From: Trueperaceae bacterium
Lineage (GTDB): Bacteria; Deinococcota; Deinococci; Deinococcales; Trueperaceae
DNA length: 64,000 nt
Assembly: GCA_011389865.1 (NCBI GenBank)
Contig: JAABTL010000003.1
Span: 62,001 to 126,000, forward strand
Direction: 5' to 3'
The notes beneath the pieces are model-generated. The model was not told the origin of the DNA and did no database searches. It saw only the letters and a list, made by a program, of their open reading frames with translations. Positions 11,063 through 46,255 of the stretch are shown here, in pieces. A program made the translations under genes and the position numbers. Position 1 is the first letter of the stretch. The number at the start of each line of letters is the position of its first letter.

Positions 11063-11098
11063 GATGAGGACGGGTGACCGGAGGTAGCGGTTCCATCA

Positions 11099-11143
11099 CC
11101 CTGGTCGGAGATTAGGGGGCCGACCGTGAGGTCAGCGTGAGGT
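11099..11143 (-). promoter_or_regulatory. SARP-like direct-repeat promoter, copy A
   Basis: Minus strand: ACCTCACGCTGACCTCACG (11143-11125), then 10 nt, then -10 TAATCT (11114-11109). The unit CTCACG recurs after 11 bp with TGAC between. The plus strand shows GTGAGGT twice, 11 bp apart. About 30 nt downstream of the -10 box remain similar to copy B at 19.8 kb. SARP regulators are known to bind such 11-bp repeats just before a -10 box. Confidence 0.6.
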
Positions 11144-18065: not shown

Positions 18066-19577
18066 TCAGCGGGCGGCGGCGCCCGTCCCGTTCGCGTCGA
18101 TCCTAGCGCCGCGCAGGTCGAGCTGGAACGACGAGCCCGGCAGGCGCTCGCCCTCCAGGCCGCCGCGCTTCGCGAAGGTGCCCACGTGGTGGTAGAGCGG
18201 CAGCATCGGCAGGTCGGCCAGCGCCAGCTCCTGCGCCTCGCGGTACGCGGCTGCCCGCTCGGGGCCGTCCTCGGTAGCGGCGCCGCGCTCCAGGAGCGCG
18301 TCGAACGCGTCGCTGGCGTAGCGGCTGGTGTTGTTGCTGCCGATCTCGCGGCTGTGCAGCGCCATGGAGAGCATGAAGTGCGGATCGAGCGTGTCCGACC
18401 CCCAGAACCCGAGCGTGAGCTCCGCGTCCGGCGACGTGACGATCTCGAGGAGGGTGGCGAACTCGTGGATGCGCAGTTCGACGCGCAGGCCGATCTCGGC
18501 GAGCGCCGCCTGGACGTACTGTGCCACGTCTTCGAGGCCGCCGTCGGTGGCCATGTCGAGCACCAACCGGGTGCCCTCGGCACCGGCCTCGCGCAGGAGC
18601 TCGCGGGCGCGTGCGGGGTCGTACGGGCGATCGTCGGGGGCGTCCAGGGCGTAGCGCACGAGTGGCGACAGGGGGCCGACGGGCGGCAGCGCGAGGCCGC
18701 TGAAGAGCGCGTCGACCAGCAGCTGGCGGTCGAGCGCGTGCGCGATCGCGCTGCGGACGCGCGGATCGCCGAGCACGGGGTGCTCCACGTTCATCCCGAG
18801 GTACGTCGTGCGGTCGCTGGGGTAGCGGCCGAGCGCCACGCCCGGCTCTCCCTCGAGCGCGAGGAAGGCGTCGGCCGCGAGGTCGTGGATGAGGTGCAGG
18901 TCGCCGGCGCGGAAGGCGATGAGCCGTGCCGCGGCCTCGGGGATGACGCGGTAGTGCACGCCGGCGAGCGCGGGCGCGCCGCCCCAGTAGTCGGGATCGG
19001 CGGCGATCTCGACGACCTCGCCCTCGCGCCAGGCGACGAAGCGGAACGGTCCGGTCCCCACGGGCGCGCGGCCGAGCTCGGGGCCGGCGCCCGGGGGCAC
19101 GATCGCGGTCGCGGGGAAGGTCAGGTTGGCCAGCAGCGGCACGAAGGGCGGGTCGCTGACGAGGTCGAGCGTGTGGTCGTCGACGACCACGATGTCGTCG
19201 ATGGTGGCCACGAGGAACGCGCCGCGGGCGCCGGTGGCGGGGTCGGCCAGGCGGCGCAACGAGGCGGCGACGGCGGCGGCGTCCAGCGGGCGGCCGTCGT
19301 GGAAGCGCACGCCGCGACGGAGTTCCAGCCGCAGCACGGTGGGCTCGGGGCGGCTCCAGGCGACCGCCAGGCCGGGTTCGATGGCGCCGTCGGCCCCCAA
19401 CCGCAGCAGCGTGTCGTAGAGCTGGTTGGTCACCATGAACGAGTACCCCTCGATGGCCCGGTGGGGGTCGAGGGAGGTCGGGTTGAGGGGCAGGGCCGTG
19501 ACGAGCACCTGCGCGGCGGCCAGGGCCGACAGGAGCGCCAGGACCATGACCCCAACGAGTCGCATGCCTCTCGTCAT
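18066..19577 (-). CDS. Peptide-type ABC solute-binding protein (family 5)
   Basis: 503 residues. ATG 19577 is chosen: it follows GGAGTGAAACG, and a signal peptide ends in SALAAAQ. The longer frame to GTG 19778 would bury the signal. Family 5 blocks include LPLNPTSLDPHRAIEG, LRRGVRFHDGRPLDAAAVA and YLGMNVEHPVLGDPRVRSAI. It captures oligopeptides or similar ligands outside the membrane for the two permeases downstream. It is likely transcribed from TAATCT at 19627 and perhaps also from the repeat promoter near 19.8 kb. Confidence 0.9.
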   Translation of the reverse strand: MTRGMRLVGVMVLALLSALAAAQVLVTALPLNPTSLDPHRAIEGYSFMVTNQLYDTLLRLGADGAIEPGLAVAWSRPEPTVLRLELRRGVRFHDGRPLDAAAVAASLRRLADPATGARGAFLVATIDDIVVVDDHTLDLVSDPPFVPLLANLTFPATAIVPPGAGPELGRAPVGTGPFRFVAWREGEVVEIAADPDYWGGAPALAGVHYRVIPEAAARLIAFRAGDLHLIHDLAADAFLALEGEPGVALGRYPSDRTTYLGMNVEHPVLGDPRVRSAIAHALDRQLLVDALFSGLALPPVGPLSPLVRYALDAPDDRPYDPARARELLREAGAEGTRLVLDMATDGGLEDVAQYVQAALAEIGLRVELRIHEFATLLEIVTSPDAELTLGFWGSDTLDPHFMLSMALHSREIGSNNTSRYASDAFDALLERGAATEDGPERAAAYREAQELALADLPMLPLYHHVGTFAKRGGLEGERLPGSSFQLDLRGARIDANGTGAAAR

Positions 19578-19632: not shown

Positions 19633-19787
19633 GCAGGTCGCGCGGCGGCGCGGTTCGAGCGACGCGTGGGCGCACGGCCCGGACCGGCATGACACGAGCT
19701 CCGGCGGACGATGAGAGGGACGTCTCCACCATCCGCCGTGGGCCCCGTTCTGGTGACGCGAGGTGGCGGTTCGATCACCCTGCGCGG

Positions 19788-19822
19788 ACGTTAGCGAGCG
19801 CAGCGTGAGGTCAGCGTGAGGT
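19788..19822 (-). promoter_or_regulatory. SARP-like direct-repeat promoter, copy B
   Basis: Minus strand ACCTCACGCTGACCTCACG (19822-19804) is identical over 19 nt to copy A. It is followed by 10 nt, then TAACGT (19793-19788), then a downstream stretch matching copy A (AGGGTGATSGAACCGC). It sits 30 bp beyond the nitronate monooxygenase stop and points at the peptide importer operon, 210 nt away. Confidence 0.6.
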
Positions 19823-41389: not shown

Positions 41390-41944
41390 CTACGGGCGCA
41401 GCCGGTAGTAGGTGCCCACCGCGTGCTTGCCGCCGATGGGTGGGCTACCGCCACAAGCATCGGCGAAGCCCTCGAGCTCGGCGGGCGACAGGGGAGTGAG
41501 CTCCGAGACGACGTACATCCCCTCGAGATCGGGGCCGTTGCCGTGGGCCATGGCCCGGCCCTGCGGGCCGTCGTCGTCGATCAGCATGGTGAAGACGCCG
41601 GTCCAGGTGCCGTCGATCGCCTCGGGGCGGATCTCGAAGGTGCCCGACTGGACGAGGCGTCCGTTGCTCGTGTCGATGTCGGCGCTGGAGATGACCGTGC
41701 CCGTCCCCGCGTGGGCGACGTGGTCGGAGATCACCACGCTCGCCATCTTGCGGTTCCGGACGTGCATGATCCCGTCGTCCACCCAGCTGTCGTCTTCGAG
41801 GGTCTCGCAGGTGATCTGGTAGGCCTCGTGGGGCCCTGCGACCACGCCACGATCCACCGGGTCGTCGGCCAAGACCGCCGCCAACGTGCTGAAGGCGACC
41901 ACCAGCACGGCTGCCAGAGCCATCCGTGTCCACGTTCCGTTCAT
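41390..41944 (-). CDS. Small secreted protein of unknown function
   Basis: 184 residues. Signal peptide ends in TLAAVLAD. The mature part is beta-rich: WVDDGIMHVRNRKMASVVIS and GTWTGVFTMLIDD suggest a compact barrel; two Cys occur far apart. AAGGAGG precedes ATG 41944. It lies 58 nt after the DUF6064 gene on the same strand and may share its transcript. No family recognised. Confidence 0.6.
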   Translation of the reverse strand: MNGTWTRMALAAVLVVAFSTLAAVLADDPVDRGVVAGPHEAYQITCETLEDDSWVDDGIMHVRNRKMASVVISDHVAHAGTGTVISSADIDTSNGRLVQSGTFEIRPEAIDGTWTGVFTMLIDDDGPQGRAMAHGNGPDLEGMYVVSELTPLSPAELEGFADACGGSPPIGGKHAVGTYYRLRP

Positions 41945-42002: not shown

Positions 42003-42587
42003 TCAGGGCTCGTCTGCGAGGTCCAGGCTCCACCCCCTTCGCGGCGACGCGCCGGCCCGTCGTGCGGGCCGCCCGTGGGGCCCCTCGCTCCGCGATCCGA
42101 CGAGCCACAGGCACGCCAAGCCACTCAGGGCCAGGGCGATACGCTCGGGCGCAGGACCCACCATCCAGAACGGACCGGTCAGGGCCATCACCAACGGCAG
42201 GACGAGGAGCGTCTTGGGGACGCGCGACCGGGCCAGCAGCAGCATGCCGATGGTGTAGATGACGAGCGGGCCGGTTGTGGGCTGCAGGGACCCGGCGGCC
42301 GACGGCGGTGGGCACCCCACCCACGCGACGATCGGTCGACCCACCAGTGCGTAGGCGCAGAGTCCGACGCCCGCCCATGCGGCCGGCCCGCGCCTTCGGC
42401 CGAAGGCGATCCCGCGTCGCCATGCCTGTCGGGCGAACAGTGCGCCCTGCGTCAGTAGCGCGGCCGCCCAGGCGATGCCTGGAACGGGCGATCGTGGGTT
42501 TGCGCCCGCGGACGTCACGGCGAGCGCGGCGGCAAGCCACAGGGCCGCCAGCATGGTCGGCACCCAGCGCGCGTGCGTTGCCATCAT
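42003..42587 (-). CDS. DUF6064-like membrane protein
   Basis: 194 residues with about five hydrophobic segments. The late block GCPPPSAAGSLQPTTGPLVI, then YTIGMLLLARSRVPKTLLVL, has the spacing of DUF6064 (the usual PCPTTIFTFGLLLL region) though several residues differ. Basic C-terminal tail. AGGAGG lies 8 nt before ATG 42587. Function unknown. Divergent from a BTAD regulator across 11-bp repeats. Confidence 0.6.
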   Translation of the reverse strand: MMATHARWVPTMLAALWLAAALAVTSAGANPRSPVPGIAWAAALLTQGALFARQAWRRGIAFGRRRGPAAWAGVGLCAYALVGRPIVAWVGCPPPSAAGSLQPTTGPLVIYTIGMLLLARSRVPKTLLVLPLVMALTGPFWMVGPAPERIALALSGLACLWLVGSRSEGPHGRPARRAGASPRRGWSLDLADEP

Positions 42588-42606
42588 GCGGTTGCCTCCT
42601 GTCCCC

Positions 42607-42655
42607 ACTCTTGCGGTGCAGCGTGTCGAGAGCGTGTCGAGAACGTGGAGAGGGC
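42607..42655. promoter_or_regulatory. Triple 11-bp direct repeat (TCGAG type) upstream of BTAD gene
   Basis: GTGTCGAGAGC (42623-42633), GTGTCGAGAAC (42634-42644) and GTGGAGAGGGC (42645-42655) are tandem with an exact 11-bp period. The TCGAGxx heptamer equals the published SARP-site consensus. Toward the DUF6064 gene, 10 nt separate the repeats from AAGAGT (42612-42607), the same spacing as in copies A-C. Confidence 0.6.
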
Positions 42656-42701: not shown

Positions 42702-42707
42702 TATGAT
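42702..42707 (+). promoter_or_regulatory. -10 box of the second BTAD regulator
   Basis: TATGAT, about 110 nt before ATG 42818 and about 50 nt downstream of the 11-bp repeats. Confidence 0.4.
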
Positions 42708-42817: not shown

Positions 42818-45800
42818 ATGGCGCGTTGGTCGCTGCGCATGCTCGGCCCGTTCGTCGCGGAACGCGACGGCGCGCCGCTGCCCGGCTTCCGCTCGGACAA
42901 GGTCCGGGCCCTGCTGGCGTTCCTCGCCGTGCACGTCGACCGACCGTGGTCGCGGACGACGCTGGCCGACCTGTTGTGGCCCGAGCAACCCGAGCCGATG
43001 GCCCGCGGCAGCCTTCGGAACGCCCTGTCCAACCTGCGCCAGGTGATCGGCGACCGCGACAGCGAGCCGCCGTTCTTGCGCGTCACGCAGGCCGCGGTGC
43101 AGGCGAACGCGGCCGCCGAGCGCTGGGTCGACGTCGACGACTTCCTGCGCCTGCGGGCGCGCGCGGGCGATGTTGACGTCGCCGACGCCGAGCCCGAGGC
43201 GGTGGCGCCGCTGGAGCGGGCTCTGTCGCTCTACCGTGGCCCCTTCCTGGAGGGTTTCGTCGTACCCAGCGCGCCGTTCGAGTCGTGGTTGGCGACCACG
43301 CGTGAGCAGCTGCAACGCGAGGCGGTGCGTGCCGCGCGCACCCTGGCGTTCACGCACGCGCGTCAGGGCGACGTGGAGGCAGCAACGGTGGCTGCCCGAC
43401 GCTGGCTCGATCTCGAGCCGTGGGACGAGGCGGCGCATCGCCAGCTGGTCCGGCTACTGCTGCTGCAGGGCCAACGTGCCGCCGCACTGGCGCAGTACGA
43501 GGCACTCCGAGCGCGCCTGGCCGAGGACCTCGGGGTCGAGCCGGAGCTCGAGACGACGCAGCAGGACGAGGCGATCCGTGCCGAGCGCTCCTCGCGGTCG
43601 GTGGTCGGCCCCACGCCCGTCGCCTGGCCGGGCCTGCGGCGGAACGCGCCGGGGTCGGAGCCGGAGCCTGCGTTCGTTGCCCGCGAGGAGGAGATGCGGC
43701 GGCTGAGCGATGTTCTGGAGCACGTCGTCGCGGGTGGCGCGGGCGTCGCCTTCGTGACGGGCGAGCCGGGCAGCGGCAAGACCGCGCTGCTGGCGGAGTT
43801 CGCCCGCCAGGCCATCGTCGACCACGCCCAGCTGGTCGCCCTCTGGGGTCAGGGGAATGCCTTCACGGGCAGGGGCGATCCCTTCGAGCCGTTCCGGCAC
43901 GCCGCCCAGATGTTGTCGGGTGAGGTGGAGGCCCCACCGGCCGCCGGCGCGAGCCGGGCCGAGGCGGCGCGGCGCCTGTGGCGCTGCCTGCCGTCGACAC
44001 TCGACGCCCTCCTCGAGCGCGGTCCGGACCTCATCGACCGCTTCGTCTCGGGCCGGACCCTGCTCGACTTCGCCCGCCGTCACGCCGGGGTGACCGCCGA
44101 TCAACTGCGCCGGCTCGAGCGGCGAGCGGACGAATCGATGGGCGCGCCGGGCCCGCGGGCCGCCGAGCGCCAGACGGAGTTCTTCGAACAGTTCACCCGC
44201 GTCATCGGCACGCTCGCCGAACGGCACCCCCTCCTGCTCGTCTTGGACGACCTGCAGTGGATCGATCCCGGCTCGAGCGACCTTCTCTTCCACTTGGCGC
44301 GCGGGGTGGCGGGGCGTCGCGTTCTACTGCTGGGTGCGTACCGCGCAGAGGAGGCGGCGCTGCGGCCGGGCGGCGGGGGGCGCTCCCTGGTCAGCGCCGT
44401 CGAGGAGCTCCTGACGGCCGACGGGAGCGTGCGCATCGACCTGACGAACGCCGGTGGCCGGCGGTTCGTGGATGCCCTGCTCGAAAGCGAGCCGAACGCG
44501 CTGCGTCCCGCGTTTCGCCGCAGCCTCGCGGAGCGGACGTCCGGTAACCCGCTGTTCACCATCGAACTGCTGCGTGGGCTGCAACTGCGTGGCCACCTGC
44601 GGCGCGATCGGCACGGGCGTTGGGTCGAGGGACCGGCGCTGAGCTGGGACGATGTGCCCGCGCGTGTTGAGGCCGTCATCGAAGGGCGGATCGGCCACCT
44701 GTCTGCGACGTGCCGCGAGCTGCTCACGATCGCCGCAGTCGAGGGCGAGCAGTTCACCGCCGAGGTGGCCGCGGCCGTGATCGGCCTACCGCTGGTGCAT
44801 GCGTGCGAGCTGCTGAGCGAAGAGGGGGCTCGACGACACCAGCTGGTGGCGGCGCACACCGTGCGCAGCGTCGGGGGCGCGAGCCTCGCGCTCTACCGCT
44901 TTCGGCACGGCCTGTTCCAGACGTACCTCTACCAGCGCCTCGACCCGGTGGAGCGGGCGCGCCTGCACGGTCGCGTCGGCCGCGAGTTGCGAAGCCTTTA
45001 CCGACCCGACCCCGGCCGCTACCCGCGTGTGGCCCTGTCGTTGGCGCGCCACTTCGAGGCCGCAGGCCTGGCTGGCGACGCCGTGGGCGCCCACGCCGAC
45101 GCAGCGCGTCACGCCCTCGGCCTGTCGGCCAACGCCGAGGCCGTTGCCCATCTGCGCCGGGGACTGGAACTGCTGCGCACGCTTCCAGCCTCCAAGGAGC
45201 GTGACCGCCAGGAGTTCGAGATGCAGTTGGGCCTCGGCCCGCCACTGACGGCCATCAAGGGGTGGGCGCCGCCGGAGCTGGCGGTGGCCTACGCCCGTGC
45301 CGAGGAGCTGAGTGCCGGCATCGACGACGCCGCGCAGTTGGTCCCAGCCCTGTGGCTACTGTCGGTGTTCCACCTCGGCCGTTCGGAGCATCAGGAGGTG
45401 CAGCGGCTGAAGGAGCGGATGAGGCACTTGGCGTGGAAGACGGGCGACCCGGCGCTGGTCGCGCTGGCCCGCCTGAACACCGCCACCTTCTTTCAAGGAC
45501 GCTTCGTGGAGGCGCGTCGCCAGCTGGAGGAGGCCTGCGCGGACCCGGATGTCGGGCTGCAGCGGCAGCTCGCTCGCCGCTTCGGCATGGCGCCCGCGGT
45601 CGTGGCGCTCGCGTTCCTGTCCGAGTGCCTGTGGCTCCTGAACCGCCCGCGTGAGGCCGACCGGCGTGGGTGCGAGGCGCGCGCGTTGGCGGAGCGGATC
45701 GACCACCCGATGACGACGTGCTACGCCGTCGGGCGCGCATGCTGGCTCGCGGCCCTGCGCGGCGACGGCGAGGCCACCCGTGCCTTCGCCGCCGAGCTGC

Positions 45801-46255
45801 TTGCCGAGGCCGCGCCTCACGGGCTCGACAACTTCGCCTCAGCCGCCACCTTCTTCGGGCACCGGGCTTCGCTGCGCGGCGGCACGGCGGCCGTCGATCT
45901 CGACGCCATGGAGGCGGCGATCGAGCGCTACGCCGCCCGCGGGACGACCCTCAACCGTTCCGCCTTCCTTGCGCACCACGCACGGGCCTGCGGCGAGGCG
46001 GGGCAGATCGACCGCGGGCTCGCGGCGGTCGACGCGTCACTGTCCGAGGCGGAGCGTAGCGGTGAGCTGTGGTTCCAGGCGGAGGCTTGGCGCGTCAAGG
46101 GGGAGCTGTTGGGCTTACGGGCGGCGACGGGCGCGGGGCGGGCGCAGAGCCGCCGCGCCGGGCGCGCCTGCTTCGAGGCGGCGCAGCGGACCGCCCGGGG
46201 CCAGGGCGCCGTGGCTCTCGAGCGGCGGGCGGCCGCGTGCTTGGCGTCGTGCTGA
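42818..46255 (+). CDS. BTAD-domain regulator with AAA ATPase and TPR
   Basis: 1145 residues. DNA-binding half: RWSLRMLGPFVAERDG and TTLADLLWPEQPEPMARGSL. BTAD helices run to about residue 245. ATPase: Walker A GEPGSGKTALL near residue 315, sensor/Walker B LLLVLDDLQWIDPGSSDLLF. The C-terminal 450 residues are TPR-like (HLRRGLELLRTLPASKERDR, then GWAPPELAVAYARAEEL). It closely resembles the regulator at the right end of the window over its whole length, and only distantly the 11.2-kb one. A weak GGGGG precedes ATG 42818. It is followed 10 nt later by yhhN, probably in one transcript. Confidence 0.88.
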   Translation: MARWSLRMLGPFVAERDGAPLPGFRSDKVRALLAFLAVHVDRPWSRTTLADLLWPEQPEPMARGSLRNALSNLRQVIGDRDSEPPFLRVTQAAVQANAAAERWVDVDDFLRLRARAGDVDVADAEPEAVAPLERALSLYRGPFLEGFVVPSAPFESWLATTREQLQREAVRAARTLAFTHARQGDVEAATVAARRWLDLEPWDEAAHRQLVRLLLLQGQRAAALAQYEALRARLAEDLGVEPELETTQQDEAIRAERSSRSVVGPTPVAWPGLRRNAPGSEPEPAFVAREEEMRRLSDVLEHVVAGGAGVAFVTGEPGSGKTALLAEFARQAIVDHAQLVALWGQGNAFTGRGDPFEPFRHAAQMLSGEVEAPPAAGASRAEAARRLWRCLPSTLDALLERGPDLIDRFVSGRTLLDFARRHAGVTADQLRRLERRADESMGAPGPRAAERQTEFFEQFTRVIGTLAERHPLLLVLDDLQWIDPGSSDLLFHLARGVAGRRVLLLGAYRAEEAALRPGGGGRSLVSAVEELLTADGSVRIDLTNAGGRRFVDALLESEPNALRPAFRRSLAERTSGNPLFTIELLRGLQLRGHLRRDRHGRWVEGPALSWDDVPARVEAVIEGRIGHLSATCRELLTIAAVEGEQFTAEVAAAVIGLPLVHACELLSEEGARRHQLVAAHTVRSVGGASLALYRFRHGLFQTYLYQRLDPVERARLHGRVGRELRSLYRPDPGRYPRVALSLARHFEAAGLAGDAVGAHADAARHALGLSANAEAVAHLRRGLELLRTLPASKERDRQEFEMQLGLGPPLTAIKGWAPPELAVAYARAEELSAGIDDAAQLVPALWLLSVFHLGRSEHQEVQRLKERMRHLAWKTGDPALVALARLNTATFFQGRFVEARRQLEEACADPDVGLQRQLARRFGMAPAVVALAFLSECLWLLNRPREADRRGCEARALAERIDHPMTTCYAVGRACWLAALRGDGEATRAFAAELLAEAAPHGLDNFASAATFFGHRASLRGGTAAVDLDAMEAAIERYAARGTTLNRSAFLAHHARACGEAGQIDRGLAAVDASLSEAERSGELWFQAEAWRVKGELLGLRAATGAGRAQSRRAGRACFEAAQRTARGQGAVALERRAAACLASC

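Follow-up and report, generated by a model that had tools for sequence, protein, structure and literature searches.

Background

SARP operators have so far been described from Streptomyces antibiotic clusters, and our literature searches brought up no paper in which BTAD/SARP operators of Deinococcus or Trueperaceae are treated. In SARP promoters, direct repeats are spaced by 11 or 22 bp, and the 3' repeat is located 8 bp from the -10 element (PMC10936776, PMC8306873). The 22-bp afs box in the AfsR complex extends from -40 to -19, and the -10 element is a weak CACTGT; of each 11-bp repeat, the first 8 bp are in contact with one protomer (PMC10936776). The repeat of AfsR has been given as CGTT(T/C)ATCGNN (PMC10972967). 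A putative ActII-like site reads CTCGAGAAATCCTCGAC (PMC8306873). All SARPs characterised to date are activators (PMC10972967).

An 11-bp direct repeat between the BTAD2 and DUF6064 genes

In the window (i.e. the whole 64-kb stretch of Trueperaceae DNA that was analysed), the start codon of a DUF6064 gene on the minus strand and that of a gene encoding a BTAD protein, here termed BTAD2, on the plus strand are separated by a spacer of 230 bp. Both annotations, made in an earlier note from the letters of the DNA, are correct (PF03704, E=5.5e-26; PF19540, E=3.2e-10, above the gathering score). Read directly, 42620-42630 and 42631-42641 both have the sequence AGCGTGTCGAG, and the third unit, 42642-42652 (AACGTGGAGAG), has diverged from them at 3 of 11 positions. 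Where the same note described three perfect-period 11-bp units with TCGAG, the period is indeed exact across all three (42620-42652) and two identical units contain TCGAG, but the third lacks it. No other position in the window reaches a period-11 match score of at least 19/22, the value observed here, and 5000 dinucleotide shuffles of the 230-bp spacer never equalled the observed repeat at any period from 7 to 30. The three-unit TCGAG pattern as such needs 2 mismatches at the site, which is chance level (0.60 occurrences expected in the window).

On the DUF6064 strand, the layout comprises three 8+3-bp units, then 6 nt, then the weak -10 AAGAGT, with the order TCTCCACG-TTC-TCGACACG-CTC-TCGACACG-CTG (Table 1). 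The -10-like AAGAGT, previously proposed to point toward DUF6064, is present on the minus strand, with 9 nt between it and CGTGTCG, the first core (42622). The repeat has the 11-bp variant of the two SARP periods, in a conserved layout, and the 9 nt from the 7-8-bp core to the inferred -10 compare with a SARP spacing of about 8 bp. The earlier reading of the site as a SARP-type direct-repeat operator of the divergent DUF6064 promoter is supported, a unit being found at SARP spacing before the -10 (PMC10936776, PMC8306873).

Table 1. Features of the BTAD2/DUF6064 locus and sites of the CTCACG motif (window positions unless a contig is given).
Feature	Position	Strand	Remarks
Unit 1, TCGACACG on target strand	42622..42629	-	Direct reading; NNGRTGCG-like, degenerate in orthologues
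Unit 2, TCGACACG on target strand	42633..42640	-	Direct reading; NCTCCACG in orthologues
Unit 3, TCTCCACG on target strand	42644..42651	-	Direct reading; NCTCCACG in most orthologues
9-nt spacer, unit 1 core to -10 (3 nt of unit + 6 nt)	42613..42621	-	Equal length in all aligned orthologues; 9-10 nt is the family-wide peak
-10-like AAGAGT, DUF6064 promoter	42607..42612	-	Position conserved in orthologues
Probable -10 TATGAT of BTAD2 gene	42702..42707	+	Orthologues: TATGAT, TATCAT, TAGGAT, TATAAT, TACAAT
BTAD2, regulator with OmpR-type winged helix, BTAD, AAA and C-terminal region; proposed binder	42818..46255	+	Pfam; N-terminal 261 aa match AfsR and EmbR
DUF6064-family membrane protein, proposed first target gene	42003..42587	-	PF19540; AGGAGG at 42595-42600
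Secreted 184-aa protein, proposed second operon gene, 58-nt gap	41390..41944	-	Conserved beside DUF6064-like gene in L075, L076, L078 and the paralogous locus
CCTCACG-CTGA-CCTCACG, upstream of BTAD1	11109..11138	-	Region divergent from BTAD1
CCTCACG-CTGA-CCTCACG, upstream of SBP_bac_5 gene (18066-19577)	19788..19817	-	C33:81788
CCTCACG-CTGA-CCTCACG, before secreted-protein gene	C28:6658..6692	+	C28:6664

Conservation of the layout

The close orthologues of BTAD2 in named genomes are from Trueperaceae bacteria; five orthologues (L029, L030, L031, L032 and L033) share 62-69% identity over the N-terminal 261 aa, and a second copy in the same genome, the 64-kb paralogue (L047, C33:126590, just beyond the window), shares 59% over the same region. 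In an anchored alignment on the DUF6064 strand, the three 8+3-bp units, the 6 nt and the -10 align without gaps among the window, L029-L032, the paralogue and a Chloroflexi locus (L080), and the letters of the units drift while units, spacers and -10 stay aligned. The anchor was used for the units; MAFFT run on whole intergenic regions mis-aligned the sequence from genome G024. A second Chloroflexi locus (L082) is one base shorter and has TATACT one base nearer. The -10 position is occupied by GAGAGT, GAGAGT, GAGAGT and GACAGT in the orthologues, by GACGAT in the paralogue and by TATACT in L080. Units 2 and 3 mostly read NCTCCACG in the relatives (unit 3 of L029 ends with ACC). Unit 1 is degenerate there, e.g. 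GCGGTGCG, with a clean copy only in the window, so the three-unit form has so far been seen only in the window. L033 has a different neighbour gene and weak units only, and the only same-genus orthologue (in G003) is cut by a contig end.

A functionless tandem duplication, arisen by chance in a G+C-rich spacer, would account for two letter-identical units, such as recent slippage would leave, and for the poor match of unit 1 in the orthologues, but units 2 and 3 are found at an unchanged place, with substitutions, in five relatives, which together with the shuffling result makes this explanation very improbable.

The word TCGAG shows no such conservation. TCGAG heptamers are of the ActII-ORF4/DnrI type, and the earlier note took TCGAG for the recognised word; the orthologues, however, keep CTCCACG/NGGTGCG units in place without TCGAG, and in the window TCGAG is spelled by the complement of the DUF6064 promoter strand. 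In the 64-kb paralogue, where the note suggested looking for TCGAG repeats, these are absent, but units at equal spacing are present. The literal match to the published SARP word is coincidental. A TCGAG-type regulon was also sought and rejected: surveyed as a list, the genome-wide hits of the GTGTCGAGNNCGTG and CGTGKMGNNNNCGTGKMG patterns show one clear promoter-like case, the present site, and the AGCGTGTCGAGAGCGTG pattern gives scattered one-mismatch matches across 120 relatives.

Domain architecture of BTAD2

BTAD2 (1145 aa) has the order typical of SARP/AfsR-type proteins, i.e. an OmpR-like winged helix (Trans_reg_C, 25.2 bits, slightly below the cut-off of 26.2) followed by the BTAD, and, as in the large forms of the family, continues with an ATPase domain (AAA_16 at 286-504, E=6.9e-24) and a C-terminal region, in which Pfam detects no TPR region. 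By profile as well as by predicted fold (pLDDT 81, TM about 0.6), AfsR and EmbR are the best solved-structure matches of its N-terminus. The residues of AfsR that contact phosphates (R87, S91, R94 and W74) align with conserved R67, S71, R74 and W54 of BTAD2, although S71 varies in more distant family members. In the helix alignment (RTYASRLRK in AfsR vs RNALSNLRQ in BTAD2), the base-reading T88 and R92 of AfsR correspond to N68 and N72; the replacement of both base contacts by Asn would fit a different heptamer.

The divergent operon

The DUF6064 gene is followed by one for a secreted 184-aa protein, which has no Pfam match and a poor predicted fold (pLDDT 43). The pair adjoins orthologous regulators also in L075, L076 and L078 (with a short DUF6064-like part in L078), and a homologue of the secreted protein is encoded at the paralogous locus; this retention beside orthologues, together with the paralogous copy, indicates that the regulator gene and the operon move, and are duplicated, as one unit. 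The DUF6064 protein ends with a tail, RGWSLDLADEP, that is conserved in L075, L076 and L078 as RGWSLDLxDEP (42003-42040, minus strand, in the window). A tail of this type is found also at the paralogous locus (L047/L203), on a small one-helix membrane protein without the DUF6064 part.

Since the window promoter shares the arithmetic of the AfsR promoter and the N-terminus of BTAD2 matches AfsR, we read the repeat as a SARP (AfsR-type) operator through which BTAD2 would activate the divergent operon of the DUF6064 and secreted 184-aa proteins, a reading to which we assign a probability of about 0.75. BTAD2 is the putative binder and activator, on the grounds of sequence. Its N-terminal winged helix and BTAD would bind side by side on the 11-bp repeats, one helix turn apart. 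With the nearest unit ending 9 nt before the poor -10 AAGAGT, bound BTAD2 may replace the -35 element and recruit RNA polymerase to the DUF6064 promoter; a weak -10 without a -35 suits an activator. The AAA and C-terminal domains would gate BTAD2, as NOD and TPR do in AfsR.

Spacing of repeats across the BTAD family

We compiled 116 non-redundant BTAD upstream regions from the BTAD matches in 39 Trueperaceae genomes and from other loci; gene starts were set by a rule, and -10 elements were recognised by their consensus. The controls (other periods, the opposite strand, other gaps and shuffles) were all drawn from BTAD upstream regions. Among these 116 regions, repeated words favour period 11 over every other non-codon period, and CGT is the best of the 64 trinucleotide anchors for heptamers repeated at this period. 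CGT-initial heptamers, which are ACG-ended on the strand of the divergent gene, are repeated with at least 6/7 identity in 21/116 regions at period 11, as compared to 0-7 regions (mostly 1-5) at the other periods from 7 to 29 and to 3 on the opposite strand. A TANNNT follows on the divergent strand at a gap of 9 or 10 nt in 10 of the 21, while the remaining 24 gaps in the range 0-25 together give one. The binomial probability of this peak, about 2e-16, ignores relatedness; as the ten loci are spread over 7 of 13 protein clusters, it overstates independence, yet the peak is not the doing of one clade. The BTAD2 orthologues are not among the ten. An earlier test, in which an 18-base window was run over 34 regions, showed no more than a modest excess at period 11; of the two, the anchored test on the 116 regions is the one to rely on.

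For other lineages, nine genomes with the labels Chloroflexi, Proteobacteria, Variovorax and Acidimicrobiia supplied 26 BTAD upstream regions. The period-11 repeat is found on the strand of the divergent gene in 8 of these, with at most 1 for other periods and none for the opposite strand. TANNNT at 9-10 nt accompanies 5 of the 8. As four of the eight loci had been known before the rule was set on these regions, the set is only partly out of sample. We lean, with some reserve, towards a cross-phylum rule for pairing BTAD regulators with target genes: on the divergent-gene strand, ACG-ended heptamers recur at 11 bp, 9-10 nt before TANNNT.

The same distances bear on whether the repeats mainly serve the promoter of BTAD2 itself (TATGAT), activating or repressing it, with the proximity of DUF6064 being incidental. 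On the forward side, TANNNT lies anywhere from 7 to 60 nt from the repeat, without a peak, whereas the divergent side is sharp at 9-10 nt; in the window, TATGAT is about 50 nt away, and two of the CTCACG sites (C33:81788 and C28:6664) precede non-BTAD genes at equal spacing. Control of the regulator's own gene is thus unlikely, even though the -10 of BTAD2 is conserved, the repeats always adjoin a BTAD gene, and in the Chloroflexi loci L080 and L082 the last unit abuts the -35 (TTGAAA/TTGAGA) of the BTAD gene. We give slightly less credit still to the repeats being the operator of a non-BTAD regulator, or to repression of DUF6064 by BTAD2 covering the promoter: the pairing of BTAD2 with the site is drawn from sequence, and the overlap of site and promoter makes blocking geometrically possible, but across lineages the 11-bp repeat goes with BTAD genes, the weak -10 without a -35 fits activation, and the SARPs characterised to date are activators (PMC10972967). 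Activation of the DUF6064 operon by BTAD2 remains our preferred reading.

The genome from which the window comes (a Trueperaceae-like MAG of 3.05 Mb) has 21 BTAD matches, 20 of them above the family cut-off, with clusters on contigs C28 and C2. The pattern ACG-N8-ACG-N9/10-TANNNT occurs in it at 20 places, some of which may lie in genes, vs 2 for the reversed pattern. Upstream of another BTAD gene (L037), TTGCGACG repeats are found with TAAGCT at 9 nt, and the divergent strand, further along, encodes a repetitive beta-helix-like protein that is probably secreted.

CTCACG sites proposed for BTAD1

The CTCACG motif occurs at three sites (Table 1), followed after 9 or 10 nt by TAATCT, TAACGT and TAGCCT, and matching sites exist in the same-genus genomes G001 and G002. 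Judged by its letters, it is the same type of operator as the BTAD2 site, with a different heptamer. BTAD1 would be the binder of all three sites, which are candidates for a small BTAD1 regulon. The suggestion that paralogous BTAD proteins have separate codes overdrew the contrast between the two motifs, as architecture and ACG end are shared. Differences do exist in the first half of the heptamer and in the helix residues that read bases, so the idea can fairly be kept as one of distinct specificities on a shared frame.

At both CTCACG promoters of the window, the sequence GGTGATSGAACCGCYACCTC lies 3' of the -10 (11081-11100 and 19760-19779, both on the minus strand). It recurs in two same-genus genomes (L206, L207), in leaders of about 200-320 nt; one copy, in G024 (L176), is set apart by a gap of one base, which makes a reading frame improbable.

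Implications

If the rule is true, the operator and first target of many BTAD proteins could be read from sequence in Deinococcota, Chloroflexota and Proteobacteria, including the targets of the 20 above-cut-off BTAD matches in the present genome. It would also suggest that outside Streptomyces, BTAD regulators often govern envelope or secreted proteins, not antibiotics. Pairs of recognition helix and heptamer could then be collected in bulk, to learn what the helix residues specify.

Comparison with known systems

The sites of ActII-ORF4 and DnrI share with the BTAD2 site the 11-bp period and the 8-bp distance to the -10, but at the BTAD2 site TCGAG does not lie on the strand read toward DUF6064, and relatives do not conserve it. 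The operator of the SARP-LAL protein PimR in the pimM-pimR intergenic region of Streptomyces natalensis (PMC3367932, PMC5930380) likewise comprises three heptamers with 4-bp spacers, located between the gene for a large regulator and a divergent/adjacent target gene that PimR activates; its heptamer, however, is CGGCAAG and it lies clear of the -35, whereas the nearest unit of the BTAD2 site is 9 nt from the -10. The CTCACG operators proposed for BTAD1 have ACG-ended heptamers at 11 bp and TANNNT 9-10 nt away, but the heptamer is CCTCACG, there are two units, and the helix reads LRQLLVALR in BTAD1 vs LRNALSNLR in BTAD2.

AfsR with the afs box of the afsS promoter in Streptomyces coelicolor (PDB 8HVR, 8JKE, 8K60; PMC10936776) resembles BTAD2 in combining winged helix, BTAD, ATPase and further C-terminal domains, and its site in having at least two 11-bp direct repeats, with 8 bp contacted and 3 not, about 6 nt from a weak -10. 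It belongs to another phylum and has two repeats instead of three, and its target is a small regulator gene, whereas the one proposed for BTAD2 is an operon for membrane and secreted proteins. As the afs-box word differs and T88/R92 of AfsR are replaced by N68/N72, we do not claim equivalence in sequence; what the two operators share is their geometry.
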